From assembly GCA_937928575.1 (NCBI GenBank), contig CALFWW010000067.1, forward strand, positions 1-64,000: DNA of 64,000 nt, given 5' to 3'. Of this stretch, positions 11,946 to 41,100 are shown one piece after another. The notes below the pieces were generated by a model. The model had not been told where the DNA came from. It ran no database searches and saw nothing but the letters and a program-made list of their open reading frames with translations. The position numbers were made by a program, and so were the translations under genes. Each line of letters starts with the position of its first letter. Position 1 is the stretch's first letter. The DNA is from an uncultured Saprospiraceae bacterium (GTDB lineage: Bacteria > Bacteroidota > Bacteroidia > Chitinophagales > Saprospiraceae).

Positions 11946-12268
11946 TTGAAAAGATATCCGGTTAAAAAATACCCAAAGGGGTTTCAGCAATAGTGATGGG
12001 CAACGCCGGCATCGCCCCTCACTATTGTATACACTCGTGAAAGCTTTAACGGAGCGCAAGCATTTATTTGCTTTCGGTCCTATAGACCTTTGATAGGATT
12101 TGGAATTTAGCATCGGACGTTGCCCATTGCTTTTGCTTTAACTCCTGTGGAGTTTTCATTCAGAATAAAAAAATCGTAAATTCATCTGTATTATTTCTTC
12201 TACTAAAATGCAGGACAGTAAGCGAATCTTTGAATTTGAACTGTTCTCAAAAACAAAATCATTAAATC
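11946..12268. other. Structured non-coding spacer before paaY
   Basis: This 320-base spacer has no credible ORF but is highly structured. CAATAGTGA (11988-11996) plus GGGC pairs with GCCC plus TCACTATTG (12019-12027), a hairpin of 13 pairs with one mismatch. ATGGGCAACG (11996-12005) is also the exact reverse complement of CGTTGCCCAT (12118-12127), enclosing about 110 bases. A triloop palindrome AACTCC-TGT-GGAGTT sits at 12140-12154. It could be a dispersed REP-like element or a structured RNA. Confidence 0.5.
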
Positions 12269-12865
12269 TTGATCTACGAATACAAAGGTTTCAAACCAGT
12301 AATACACGAATCCTCCTTCATCCACCCACAAGCCAATGTTACAGGTAATGTAATCATCGGCAAAGATGTATATGTCGGACCATTCGCAGCAATTCGTGGA
12401 GACATTGGAGGCGTTGTCATAGAAGACGGTTGCAATGTCCAAGAAAATTGTACCATCCATATGTTTCCTGGTGTAAAAGTATTGTTAAAAAAATCAGCTC
12501 ATATCGGACACGGAGCAATTATCCACGGTGCTACCATCGGAGAAAATTCCTTGATTGGGATGAATGCAGTCGTCATGGATAATGCCATTATTGGTGATGA
12601 ATGTATTGTCGGTGCTTTAACCCTTATCAAAGCAGATGCGCATATTCCTCGTCGAAGTTTAATAGTAGGAAATCCAGGAAAAATCATCAAACAAGTAACA
12701 GATGATATGATTAAATGGAAAACAAAAGGAACTGAATTATACCAAACTTTTCCTGCAGCATATTACGGCACTTTACGACCTGTTGAACCGCTCCGCGAAA
12801 TTCCAAAAGATCAACCTGAACAAGATGTACTTTTCAAAACCTGGAATGAGATTAAGGAAAATTAG
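12269..12865 (+). CDS. paaY: PaaY hexapeptide-repeat thioesterase / gamma-carbonic-anhydrase-like protein
   Basis: A left-handed beta-helix protein close to PaaY, which in studied bacteria hydrolyses CoA esters that accumulate when phenylacetate catabolism stalls. Hexapeptide repeats run over about residues 18-140 (VTGNVIIGKDVYVGPFAAIR, ENSLIGMNAVVMDNAIIG). The three metal-binding His positions are in NCTIHMF and HIGHGAIIHGA. The C-terminal VEPLREIP is shared with PaaY rather than with generic carbonic anhydrases. The start is TTG at 12269: an in-frame TAA lies at 12263-12265 and no ATG occurs before the middle of the beta-helix. Confidence 0.9.
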   Translation: MIYEYKGFKPVIHESSFIHPQANVTGNVIIGKDVYVGPFAAIRGDIGGVVIEDGCNVQENCTIHMFPGVKVLLKKSAHIGHGAIIHGATIGENSLIGMNAVVMDNAIIGDECIVGALTLIKADAHIPRRSLIVGNPGKIIKQVTDDMIKWKTKGTELYQTFPAAYYGTLRPVEPLREIPKDQPEQDVLFKTWNEIKEN

Positions 12866-12869
12866 AAGT

Positions 12870-13060
12870 TAAAAATGTAAAATTAAAAATATGACCGTCC
12901 ATACGTCAGACTGTGCGAAAACTAAAATTTTTGGTCAAGGTTCTTTGACGGGACGCCAAAACCAACCTACTTTTTGGGTATTTTCGCACAACCTGACGTT
13001 TGCATGCGTAAGCACGTATTTAGGTCATATTATTTTTAATTCCTTCCGTTTACATTTTTA
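12870..13060. mobile_element. MITE-like 190-bp imperfect palindrome between paaY and paaZ
   Basis: Nested arms pair from outside to inside: TAAAAATGTAA (12870-12880) with its complement at 13050-13060; AATATGACC (12888-12896) with GGTCATATT (13023-13031); ACGTCAG-AC-TGTGCGAAAA (12903-12921) with TTTTCGCACA-AC-CTGACGT (12981-12999). The centre holds a further GTCAA/TTGAC stem. There is no ORF of note. The layout fits a miniature inverted-repeat element or a long structured RNA. No target-site duplication is obvious in the AT-rich flanks. Confidence 0.6.
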
Positions 13061-13181
13061 ATTTATATACATCCTTTTCCGTATATTAGCACAGCTATTC
13101 GGCAAACTTGCTAAGTATATTTCCTTTCAACAGCAATTGCCTATACTATTAGATTACAAACTAGAATTACAAATAATTTTA

Positions 13182-15230
13182 ATGAAAATAAAGAATTATG
13201 CCCTCGGCAAATGGGTAGCTGGTAAAGGCAAAGGAGCTCCATTATATAATGCCATCACCGGAGAAGAAATTGGTGAAGCAACAAGTGCAGGATTAGACTT
13301 CAATGACATGATGACCTATGCTCGTGAAGTCGGTGGACCCGCACTCCGAAAAATGACCTTTCACGAACGAGGTAGAATGATCAAGAAATTAGCACTCTAC
13401 TTGTTTGAAAGAAAAGACAAATTCTATCCAATCAGTTACCAAACCGGTGCAACCAAAGCAGATAGTTGGATCGATATAGAAGGTGGAATCGGAAATCTAT
13501 TCGCCAATGCAAGTCTCCGTAGAAATTTTCCAAATGAAACTTTTTATGTGGATGGCGAACAAGCAAATATTTCAAAAAATGGAACTTTCATTGGACATCA
13601 TATTATGGTTCCGAAACCAGGAGTCGCCATTCATATCAATGCCTTCAATTTTCCAATTTGGGGAATGCTGGAAAAAATTGCAGTTAACTTGTTAGCAGGA
13701 GTACCAGCAATTGTGAAACCTGCAACCTTGACTTGCTATTTGACAGAAGCGATGGTAAGACAAATTACTAAATCCAAAATTTTACCAAAAGGTGCTTTGC
13801 AATTAATCAGTGGTTCAGCAAGAGGAATTCTAGATCATGTGGTATCTCAAGATGTGGTGACTTTTACGGGTTCTGCCGACACCGGAAGAATGCTGAAATC
13901 ACACCCTAGAATTATCAATGAAGCGGTGCCTTTCAATATGGAAGCAGACTCATTGAATTGTGCCATCCTAGGAAAAGATGCAAAACCAGGTACGCCAGAA
14001 TTCGATTTATTCATCAAAGAAGTGCGTAGAGAAATGACCGCAAAATGCGGGCAAAAATGTACCGCAATCAGAAGAGTAATTGTGCCTAAAAATTTGGTAG
14101 AAGCCGTTCAGGAAGAATTGAGCAAACAACTAAAACAAACGGTTATCGGTGACCCTTCCGTTAAAGGAGTAAGAATGGGTGCATTGGCTGGAAAAGTACA
14201 AGTCGAAGAAGTGAAAGAAAGAATTCAGCAATTGATGCAAACTTCTGATTTGGTGTATGGAAATTTAAGTCGATTCAAAGTTGTCGGTGCCGATAAAAAG
14301 AAGGGTGCATTCATGTCCCCAATTGTATTGTTAAATTCAAAGCCGCATAAAAATTTAGATACCCATAATATCGAAGCATTCGGACCCGTAAGTACCATCA
14401 TGCCATACAAAGATACGGCAGATGCAATCAAATTGGCGAATCTTGGAAAGGGTTCACTCGTTTGTTCCATAGCAACCAATGACAGAGACATCGCTAAAGA
14501 ATTTGTAATGGGTGCAGCGAGTTATCATGGTCGTATTCTCATCCTCAACGAAGAAGGATCAAAAGAAAGTACTGGTCATGGATCACCGCTCCCTTTATTG
14601 GTGCATGGTGGGCCAGGTCGTGCTGGAGGTGGAGAAGAGATGGGCGGAATGCGTGGTGTGAAACATTATCTACAACGTACCGCAATTCAAGGACATCCAT
14701 CAATGATTACGGCAGTCACCAATCAATATCAATATGGTGCAGAACAAACTGAAAAACCAGTTCATGTTTTTAGAAAACATTTTGAAGAACTAGAAGTTGG
14801 AGAAACGGTCATCACTGCAAAGCACACCGTAACAGAAGCAGATATCGCCAATTTCGCAAATGTCAGTGGAGATAATTTCTATGCACACGTCGATGCAACT
14901 TCATTAGAAGGAACCATCTTCGAAGGAAAAGTAGCACACGGGTATTATGTGTTATCAAAAGCTGCTGGTTTGTTTGTCGATCCTAAGAAAGGACCCGTTT
15001 TATTGAACTACGGAATCGAAGAATGCCGATTTGTAAAACCAGTTTATCCAGGAACGACTATTGGTGTCAAATTTACAGTAAAGCAAAAGGTGGATCAAGA
15101 AAAAAGAGATGAAGATGATATCGCAAAAGGTATCGTGAAATTCCTAGTAGATGTCTACGACGAAACAGGAGAGACAGTCGCAATCGCTACGATTTTGACC
15201 ATGGTTAAGAAATTAGATCAAAGCAGCTAA
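13182..15230 (+). CDS. paaZ: Bifunctional PaaZ: oxepin-CoA hydrolase and semialdehyde dehydrogenase
   Basis: PaaZ opens oxepin-CoA with its C-terminal MaoC-like hydratase domain and oxidises the resulting aldehyde with its N-terminal aldehyde dehydrogenase domain. The ALDH domain has NAFNFPIWGMLEKIA, Glu at about 254 in NMEADSLN and the nucleophile Cys at about 293 in GQKCTAIRR. The MaoC domain (from about residue 530) has the catalytic Asp/His segment SGDNFYAHVD at about 561-570. From the ATG at 13182 the protein is 682 residues, the same size as E. coli PaaZ. An upstream TTG at 13137 would add 15 unlikely residues. Confidence 0.96.
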   Translation: MKIKNYALGKWVAGKGKGAPLYNAITGEEIGEATSAGLDFNDMMTYAREVGGPALRKMTFHERGRMIKKLALYLFERKDKFYPISYQTGATKADSWIDIEGGIGNLFANASLRRNFPNETFYVDGEQANISKNGTFIGHHIMVPKPGVAIHINAFNFPIWGMLEKIAVNLLAGVPAIVKPATLTCYLTEAMVRQITKSKILPKGALQLISGSARGILDHVVSQDVVTFTGSADTGRMLKSHPRIINEAVPFNMEADSLNCAILGKDAKPGTPEFDLFIKEVRREMTAKCGQKCTAIRRVIVPKNLVEAVQEELSKQLKQTVIGDPSVKGVRMGALAGKVQVEEVKERIQQLMQTSDLVYGNLSRFKVVGADKKKGAFMSPIVLLNSKPHKNLDTHNIEAFGPVSTIMPYKDTADAIKLANLGKGSLVCSIATNDRDIAKEFVMGAASYHGRILILNEEGSKESTGHGSPLPLLVHGGPGRAGGGEEMGGMRGVKHYLQRTAIQGHPSMITAVTNQYQYGAEQTEKPVHVFRKHFEELEVGETVITAKHTVTEADIANFANVSGDNFYAHVDATSLEGTIFEGKVAHGYYVLSKAAGLFVDPKKGPVLLNYGIEECRFVKPVYPGTTIGVKFTVKQKVDQEKRDEDDIAKGIVKFLVDVYDETGETVAIATILTMVKKLDQSS

Positions 15231-38100: not shown

Positions 38101-41100
38101 ATTTTACAAAATAGAGATGTAATATTTGACATCACCGTTGTCAACCAAGGTTCGGTAGATGCAACTGGAATTGTAATCAGTGATTACATCCCAACCGGAT
38201 TTACATTGAATGATCCAAACTGGTCAGTAACTGGTGGCGTTGCAACCTATAATACACCTATCAATTTGGCAGTAGGTGGGCAAGAAATCATCATGATCAC
38301 TTTGACTGTTGATGCAGGAATTGGAAGCCAAACGTTAATTAACGTAGCGGAGGTAAGTGATGCAAGAGATGAATTTGGAGCACCTGCTACAGATATAGAT
38401 TCAACACCAGATACAAATCCATCAAACGATCCAGGTGGTGTTGTAAATACAGCAGATGATGACAATGCAAGTGAAGATGGAAAGAATGGTGGAGATGAAG
38501 ATGATGCCGATCCAGAAGACGTATTTGTCGAATCATTCGATTTAGCACTCAGAAAAACTTTGAATACTTCTTTGACACAACAACCAATTTTGTCAGGAAG
38601 AACTGTAGTATTTGATATCGAAGTATTCAATCAAGGTACTGTAAATGCTACAGGAATTGAATTAACAGAATACTTGCCAGCAGGCTTGACTTTGACAGAT
38701 GCCAACTGGACACAATCTGGTGCGACTGCTACTTACAACTCACTATTGAGTTTAGGAGCAGGCACAAGTCAAACAATACAAGTAGAATTTACAGTAGATG
38801 CAAGTTACTCAGGTTGTTCTCAAAACGCAGTTGAAATATCAAATGCCGCAGATGAAAATGGAGTGCCAGCCGATGATATTGATTCTACAAATGATAACAA
38901 CAACGGAAATGATACAGTTGTAAATGATGAAATCGAAGGAGTAGGAGGAGACGAAGATGATCAAGATATTGAAGACATTATTGTCGAAAGATTCGATATC
39001 GCTTTAATCAAAACCATTAATCCATCAACAGATAATATTCTGTTGACGGGACGTAGTGTGATTTTCGATATCACCGTGGTGAATCAAGGATCAATAGATG
39101 CAACAGGAATCGTTCTTAGCGATTATGTTCCTGCTGGTTTGATTCTAAATGATGCCAACTGGACGCAAACAGGTGGAACAGCAACTTATAACACACCAAT
39201 CAATTTAGCAGTTGGTGCACAACAAATAGTACAAATTGCATTCACAGTAGATGCAGGATTCGGAGGTCAAACCTTAATCAACGTTGCTGAGGTAAGCGAT
39301 GCAAGAGATGAATTCGGAGCACCAGCAGATGATGTAGATTCAACACCAGATACCGATCCATCAAACGATCCAGGTGGTGTTGTAAATACGGCAGATGATG
39401 ACAATGCAAGTGAAGATGGAAAGAATGGCGGAGATGAAGATGATGCCGATCCAGAAGATGTTGTAATTGACATATTTGATTTAGCAATTAGAAAGACCTT
39501 AAGTCCAACAACTCAACAACCAATTTTGACAGGTCGTACGGTAACTTTTGATATTGAAGTATTTAATCAAGGAACAGTTGATGCAACTCAAATCGAATTA
39601 ACAGATTACCTACCAACTGGTTTGACATTGTCTGATCCAGCTTGGACTCAAAATGGAGCAACCGCAACTTACAATTCGCCATTAAGTGTGGCAGTAGGTG
39701 CTAGCACGACCGTTCAAATCGATTTTGTAGTCGATGATGGTTATTCAGGTGGTTCTCAGAATGCAGTAGAAATCAGCGGAGCTTCTGATAGTGACGGTGT
39801 TCCTGCAATTGATGATGATTCTACACTAGATGATTTATTAGGAAATGATACTTTGGTTGATGATATAATAGATAACACAGGAGGAGATGAAGATGATCAA
39901 GACATTGCCGATATCATAGTAGAGCGTTTCGATATCGCATTGATCAAAACAATTAACCCAAGTACCGTAACACCAATTTTACAAAATAGAGATGTAATAT
40001 TTGACATCACTGTTGTCAACCAAGGTTCGGTAGATGCAACTGGAATTGTAATCAGTGATTACATCCCAGCTGGATTTACATTGAATGATCCAAACTGGTC
40101 AGTAACTGGTGGCGTTGCAACCTATAATACACCAATCAATTTGGCAGTAGGTGGGCAAGAAATCATCATGATTACCTTGACTGTCGATGCAGGAATTGGA
40201 AATCAAACTTTAATAAACGTTGCCGAGGTAAGCGAAGCAGATGATGAATTTGGAGCACCAGCAACAGATATAGATTCAACACCAGATACCGATCCATCAA
40301 ACGATCCAGGTGGTGTTGTAAATACAGCGGATGACGACAATGCAAGTGAAGATGGAAAGAATGGTGGAGATGAAGATGATGCCGATCCAGAAGATGTATT
40401 CGTAGAATCATTCGATTTAGCACTTAGAAAGACTTTAAATACTTCTTTGACACAACAACCAATTTTGTCAGGAAGAACCGTAGTATTTGATATCGAAGTA
40501 TTCAATCAAGGTACTGTAAATGCTACAGGAATTGAGCTAACAGAATACTTACCAGCAGGTTTGACATTGACAGATGCCAATTGGACTCAGACCGGTGCAA
40601 CTGCGACTTACAACTCATTGTTAAGTTTAGGTGTTGGTCAAAGTCAAACAATACAAGTAGAATTTACAGTCGACGCAAGTTACTCAGGTGGTTCTCAAAA
40701 TGCAGTTGAAATTTCAGATGCTGCTGATGAAAACGGAGTTCCTGCAGATGACATCGATTCTACAAATGATAACAATAATGGAAACGATACCGTTGTAAAC
40801 GACGAAATTGATGGAGTAGGAGGAGACGAAGATGATCAAGATATTGAAGACATTATTGTTGAGCGTTTCGATATTGCATTGATCAAAACAGTCAACCCAT
40901 CTACACCAAGTATATTGTTGACAGGAAGAGATGTGATTTTTGATATCACAGTTGTGAATCAGGGATCCGTAGATGCAACAGGAGTTGTGATCAGTGATTA
41001 CATTCCTGCAGGATTATTATTGAATGATGCAAACTGGTCTCAGACTGGTAGTACGGCAACATACAATACACCAATTAACTTACCAGTAGGTGCGCAACAA

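Follow-up and report, generated by a model that had tools for sequence, protein, structure and literature searches.

The paaY-paaZ spacer

What fills the spacer between the paaY-like and paaZ-like genes of an uncultured Saprospiraceae bacterium: a mobile DNA, a structured RNA or the promoter region of paaZ? The question was raised by a sequence-only reading of the 64,000-nucleotide stretch of DNA analysed here (the window), which described a nested palindrome at this place. The spacer, which runs from the TAG stop codon of the upstream open reading frame (12863-12865) to the ATG of the downstream one (13182), does contain a single long imperfect hairpin. Folded as RNA, positions 12850-13080 reach a minimum free energy of -66.6 kcal/mol (z -7.1), and none of 200 dinucleotide shuffles of the same segment was as stable (mean -38.5, sd 3.9). 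The predicted fold comprises 80 pairs in 12 helices. Its main arms are formed by 12866-12896 with 13023-13064, and weaker outermost pairs extend the hairpin to 12850 and 13079. Arm search and fold agree on the several nested arm pairs that had been claimed. The one described as 17 pairs with a symmetrical AC/AC internal loop is exact: seven outer pairs (12903-12909 with 12993-12999), the AC of 12910-12911 facing the AC of 12991-12992, and ten inner pairs (12912-12921 with 12981-12990). The parts of the hairpin and the genes that border it are collected in Table 1. The nearest relatives of the PaaZ protein of this organism are those of Saprospiraceae MAGs (78%).

Table 1. Features of the paaY-paaZ spacer and its borders (window positions; G001, the same-genus genome)
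Feature	Position	Strand	Evidence
paaY-like upstream gene; TTG start as listed	12269-12865	+	earlier sequence-only reading; synteny with G001; alignment with G001
Left AT-rich arm, A1 half-unit, outer layer; adjoins the paaY stop codon	12866-12891	+	A1 pattern match at contig C67:12867-12891; pairs with 13029-13064
Left inner word of A1, TGACCGTCCATACG	12892-12905	+	
C element, 91 bp, with imperfect inverted ends TCAGACTGTGCGAAAA / TTTTCGCACAACCTGA and CG on either side	12906-12996	+	absent from the orthologous G001 spacer
E repeat within the C core	12939-12966	+	E pattern with 2 mismatches
Right inner word of A1, with many ACGT-like words	12997-13030	-	
Right AT-rich arm of A1; about 7 additional bases (13042-13048) relative to the left arm	13031-13064	-	
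Stretch from hairpin to paaZ, alignable with G001; possible promoter and leader	13077-13181	+	alignment with G001
paaZ-like gene	13182-15230	+	list of open reading frames; PaaZ comparison

Other inverted repeats were noticed in the window. Before paaY, at 11973-12150, 33-nt arms enclose a 20-nt pair; this is perhaps another palindromic family, since weak partial matches (76-80%) occur at three other places of the same genome. Nearly the same 22-23-nt inverted pair is found twice, about 1.9 kb apart, at 38637-38796 and 40513-40670, and may belong to a repeated gene domain.

The outer layer

Two genomes of the genus, both drafts, were compared: that of the organism itself (G000; 5.35 Mb in 284 contigs) and one other (G001). 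When the spacer was used as query against G000, 72 matches were obtained at E<=1, most of them to the AT-rich outer arm, and a single longer match (75%, on contig C113) to the inner part. The outer repeat, which we call A1, was searched for in 30 genomes with a pattern of 25 bases and up to 3 mismatches. It matches 58 times in G000, 62 times in G001 and 0-2 times in each of the 28 other relatives; the backward-pattern control gave 0 matches in G000, 1 in G001 and 2 in one other genome of the same 30. A genome-wide search with the arm sequences, which the sequence-only reading had proposed as a check, therefore returns copies, and the spacer is made of repeats and not of a unique sequence.

A1 has several features of REPs. 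It is a short extragenic repeat with many copies, and its half-units occur singly, as inverted pairs and as tandem direct arrays, the latter at L024 (G000 contig C233) and L010 (G000 contig C272). The inner words of A1 match their own partner slightly better than they match others (4.73 versus 4.07, n = 42; 55 of 20000 permutations as high). This pairing is weaker than the impression gained by eye, and we make no claim that A1 interiors are good palindromes throughout.

The inner layer

Within the A1 envelope lies a second palindromic element, C. A 15-base pattern for its end, with up to 2 mismatches allowed, matches 209 times in G001 (control 5) and 11 times in G000 (control 9), where the exact 17-base end is found three times. 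By the end-pairing rule, G000 holds two complete C elements, that of the window and one on contig C101; single or worn ends are present on C150, C113, C26 and C262. In a sample of 396 genomes from the order, drawn apart from G001, the exact 17-base end occurs in two, the organism's own genome and one with a single hit and no palindrome. Viral contigs gave no match. The window and 100 further stretches yielded 51 C intervals. One is a composite; the remaining 50, treated below as single elements, count separately the two halves of a C that is divided between contigs (L072, L084).

Three main types of C core are found in G001 (D1, D2 and D3). The 20 copies with a D1 core are 97.1% identical in the median (minimum 88.2%). 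The D2 hairpin motif matches 157 times in G001 and not once in the other 29 genomes, G000 included; judged by this distribution, it is apparently a very recent, species-limited expansion. The E repeat, which the window carries inside its C core, has eight matches in G001, one in G000 and none in 28 other genomes (controls 0), and the C core copy on C113 carries E as well, with another small palindrome at its tip.

The borders of C are sharp. Of the 50 elements, 45 have a CG dinucleotide directly to their left and 46 directly to their right, which may equally be read as a 2-bp target duplication or as the end of the element itself. C begins CG|TC at both ends and is paired there, whereas the tag of a REP would be GTAG or CGTC, unpaired and at one end. 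The insertion-sequence families IS30 and IS256 were considered for C; no 8-bp direct repeat was seen by eye. Inspection by eye of the C-end matches listed for G001 revealed no pair that spans a gene-sized stretch, as an autonomous copy would.

Envelopes of C and hairpin tips

C elements are enclosed by several families of envelope: A1, A2 (GATGTATGATTTATGATA), A3 (GGTTGACGGTGAACGG), A4 (GGAAGG) and D2-like. Where the two flanks belong to one family, D1 cores are found within A2, A3, A4 and D2-like envelopes, D2 cores within A1, A2, A3 and A4, and D3 cores within A1 and A2. That several cores each occur in several envelope families supports insertion as the origin of the nesting. The layers have separate distributions of their own; A3, for example, matches 28 times in G001, four times in G000, five times in one other genus and not at all in the remaining 27 genomes.

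Among the 50 single elements, 32 have a named family on both flanks and 18 at least one unclassified flank. The two flanks belong to the same family in 26 of the 32, against a permutation mean of 7.6 and a maximum of 18 (10000 permutations). The labels come from crude regular expressions, and the right flank of the window element, which is A1, was labelled A4 through its CCTTCC, so that the corrected count is 27 of 32. The elements with different families on their two sides (6 of 32 before this correction, one being the window element) count against insertion at tips.

Two tests bear on the position of C within the enclosing palindrome. The first used the 47 of 50 elements that have 60-nt flanks, the composite interval being dropped. 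The left flank of an element pairs with its own right flank at a mean score of 14.6, compared with 9.4 crosswise, and none of 20000 re-pairings was as high. Taken singly, 26 of the 47 exceed their best shuffled control and 18 score 10.5 or less. The own flank is the best partner of its row in just 4 of 47, because many C elements share envelope families. In the second test, the flanks of 45 elements were rejoined as if C were absent (L080 and elements lacking 130-nt flanks were dropped). Palindromicity at the junction was 12.1, compared with 6.3 and 6.1 at 60-70 nt to its left and right; the Wilcoxon p values of 7e-7 and 3e-7 are too strong, since the copies are not independent. The centre of the best palindrome falls within 10 nt of the junction in 21 of 45 elements (7.8 expected). 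Location at hairpin tips holds for C as a tendency. What is targeted may be ACGT words instead of the hairpin.

Orthologous spacers in the two genomes

The paaY-paaZ gene pair is also present in G001, where PaaZ is 95% identical. The spacer there consists of an A1 envelope whose interior measures 44 nt and contains no C. The A1 interior of the window, when C is subtracted, measures 48 nt, or 46 nt if one CG is dropped as well. Since both species of the genus have A1 at this place, it is probably older there than their split.

Twelve orthologous spacers, this one and 11 others, were compared, and in five of them the envelope family is common to both genomes and C is found in one only; as both genomes are drafts, chimaeric joins at repeats are possible. 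At paaY-paaZ the envelope is A1 and C is in G000 only. At L095/L073, L101/L084+L072 (a comparison that runs over a contig break) and L025/L253 the envelope is again A1 and C is in G001 only, and at L088/L080 an A3 envelope holds two C copies in G001 only. The other seven are varied. At L082 and L290 envelope and C are present and the corresponding G000 spacer shows neither, while at L307 and L274 the envelope differs between the genomes. In L254, C stands next to A1; the C of L268 has as its G000 counterpart an A1-like arm with a worn C-like end; and L256 has no C.

At orthologous spacers C is thus found or missing as one unit. The proposal that the palindrome is a MITE is broadly borne out by this, and by the repeated families being numerous, among 30 genomes, only in the two of this genus; what it overlooked is that two elements are nested.

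Origin of the nested palindrome

The repeat families and their nesting are directly visible. In the reading that we prefer, to which we give a probability of roughly 70%, the hairpin is put together from several small mobile DNAs of REP or MITE type, none of them autonomous, which became nested by insertion at hairpin tips. Two inverted AT-rich, REP-like A1 half-units right behind the paaY stop codon would form the outer layer, A1 leading a REP-like way of life with tandem units, inverted pairs and loosely matching inner words. The 91-bp palindromic, MITE-like C would have entered this hairpin close to its tip, at ACG|CGT, and the CG on either side would be a 2-bp duplication or the element's own ends. 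The C core carries E as a third repeat. Transposition is the cause that we infer, and exact loss of C from the other species could also account for the difference between them. The elements would be moved in trans, by an enzyme that senses hairpin tips. Any effect on the host is probably slight; the predicted 3' hairpin of paaY may protect the upstream transcript or terminate it. A bolder form of this proposal, recursive transposition in which unrelated palindromic repeats of this Bacteroidota genus enter each other's tips, hairpins thereby growing by one layer within another, and a single-strand Y1 system targets the extruded hairpins, is speculative, and we hold it to be doubtful.

Still less likely is that the layers were built and re-sorted by recombination, gene conversion or template switching among inverted repeats, and not by insertion. 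Such exchange could explain the mosaic inner words of A1 pairs, the C elements with unlike envelopes on their two sides and the tandem half-units at L010 and L024, but it does not agree well with the sharp, CG-bordered ends of C, with the occurrence of several cores in several envelopes, or with the finding that 5 of 12 orthologous spacers differ by a whole C block.

Gene placement, RNA structure and the paaZ promoter

Both families lie mostly behind the 3' ends of genes, between co-directional or convergent genes, as REPs do. In G000, A1 was counted between co-directional genes 17 times, convergent genes 12 times and divergent genes 4 times, with 2 at contig ends and 1 within an open reading frame; the figures for G001 are 1, 4, 2, 1 and 2, respectively. 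Some of the places in these placement counts are not A1: two in the window, apart from the genuine one, and probably L091 and L256. Several arms of a single spacer are also counted. C in G001 lies 20 times between co-directional, 8 times between convergent and once between divergent genes, with 6 at ends, and in G000 twice between co-directional genes. For comparison, the neighbouring open reading frames of the window form 22 co-directional, 4 convergent and 4 divergent pairs. Co-directional C elements are closer to the upstream stop codon than to the downstream start (medians of 32.5 and 85 nt; n = 22, p=3e-4). The same comparison for A1, 33 versus 54 nt, is not significant (n = 17, p=0.15). 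The distances omit four rows.

If an RNA fold were under selection, G.U pairs should be favoured, and the lack of a G.U excess over A.C among the arm mismatches of the sense strand speaks against an RNA role. In co-directional elements the G.U:A.C ratio is 51:49 for A1 (24 rows) and 75:90 for C (22 rows), and for the flank pairs of co-directional C (9 pairs) it is 9:23, with p=0.02 towards A.C; all these counts come from crude alignments that hold many transversions, and they include the four rows omitted from the distances. A scan against Rfam brought no family near its threshold: the best hit scored 18 bits, where the gathering score is 80. No terminator-like site was found in 12700-13300 (shuffle mean 0.5). 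The suggestion of a structured RNA thus found no support from the Rfam scan or the mismatches. A structured regulatory RNA, or a 3'-end or attenuator hairpin of the paaY-paaZ transcript, maintained by selection for base pairing, is therefore very improbable: the strong fold of the spacer and the position of A1 and C behind gene 3' ends, with co-directional C nearer to the upstream stop, would suit it, but these results run against it, the hairpin interior is replaced wholesale between orthologs, and placement at 3' ends is described for REPs generally (PMC3733652).

The palindrome had also been said to sit where the paaZ promoter should be. It does lie in the spacer, but it starts right at the end of paaY, and a stretch of about 105 bp that aligns with G001 (13077-13181) separates it from the paaZ ATG. 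A single promoter-like site, on the minus strand, was found in 12700-13300 (shuffle mean 1.8), and no paaZ promoter was located there, so that this part of the earlier claim stands only weakly.

Relation to known repeats

The composite of mobile DNAs that we favour has its closest relatives among REP dimers, BIMEs and REPINs, which are likewise short multicopy intergenic repeats, single, tandem or inverted, 3' of stop codons. REPs are described as lying a short way downstream of stop codons, where the neighbouring genes converge or point the same way, and REP dimers have been reported inside longer palindromes in three bacteria, Anabaena variabilis, Thermomicrobium roseum and Halothiobacillus neapolitanus (PMC3733652; species names expanded from abbreviations). 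In contrast to REPs, the A1 half-units are AT-rich and the window copy shows by eye no GTAG at its foot; moreover, several unrelated palindromic families are nested here, and their tips are occupied or empty in sister genomes. C resembles MITEs in being short, with terminal inverted repeats, no coding capacity seen and many near-identical copies; it differs in that no parent transposon was found among the C-end matches listed, that a mere CG dinucleotide stands on both sides and that it tends to hairpin tips. Palindromic repeats as insertion targets are known from IS1397, ISKpn1, IS621, ISPpu9 and other insertion sequences that target REPs (PMC1525189), whereas the inserted piece here is a small palindrome without a gene. 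The GC clusters of yeast mitochondria, also short and palindromic, fuse with one another, and an orthologous site can hold either a single or a merged form (PMC4478555); they are organellar and GC-rich, and the likeness is an analogy only.

REP dimers within palindromes are thus already known, and the window hairpin is a multi-layered variant of them. The depth and freedom of nesting and the filled or empty orthologous tips are apparently new within the literature searched; a search at title and abstract level brought up no publication that deals with layered palindromes in this phylum, the Bacteroidota. Should the proposed origin be correct, each spacer would record the order of insertions and genomes would keep a history of the spread of palindromes. 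The filled and empty tips of sister genomes would also make a REP-type choice of tips testable and the enzyme searchable. It would have no particular consequence for the paa genes.

Y1 genes as candidate enzymes

Eight matches to the Y1 transposase domain (PF01797) are found in G000, one of them (L038) under the curated cut-off, and eight in G001. By eye, several of these genes stand among palindromes (the surroundings of L034 and L035 were viewed in part). Among the Y1 genes viewed, L037 alone has A1 repeats close on both sides; its 48% homologue, L330, is not flanked by A1. D2-like hairpins lie near L327 in G001, which may be chance, since the motif is so frequent in that genome. The protein of L034 is a 103-residue piece, and no tyrosine motif was found in that of L332. 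In the TnpA-REP subclass 2.6 of Bacteroidetes, atypical secondary structures flank the genes and have copies elsewhere in the genome (PMC6006769); by comparison, A1 flanks the single gene L037 among the Y1 genes seen here. A Y1 transposase (HUH, RAYT/TIRYT-like) is a tentative candidate for the moving enzyme, and falls short of a probable one. At the orthologous Y1 loci L031/L329 and L032/L328, the surrounding palindromes differ by eye between the two genomes, as if gene and repeats changed together.
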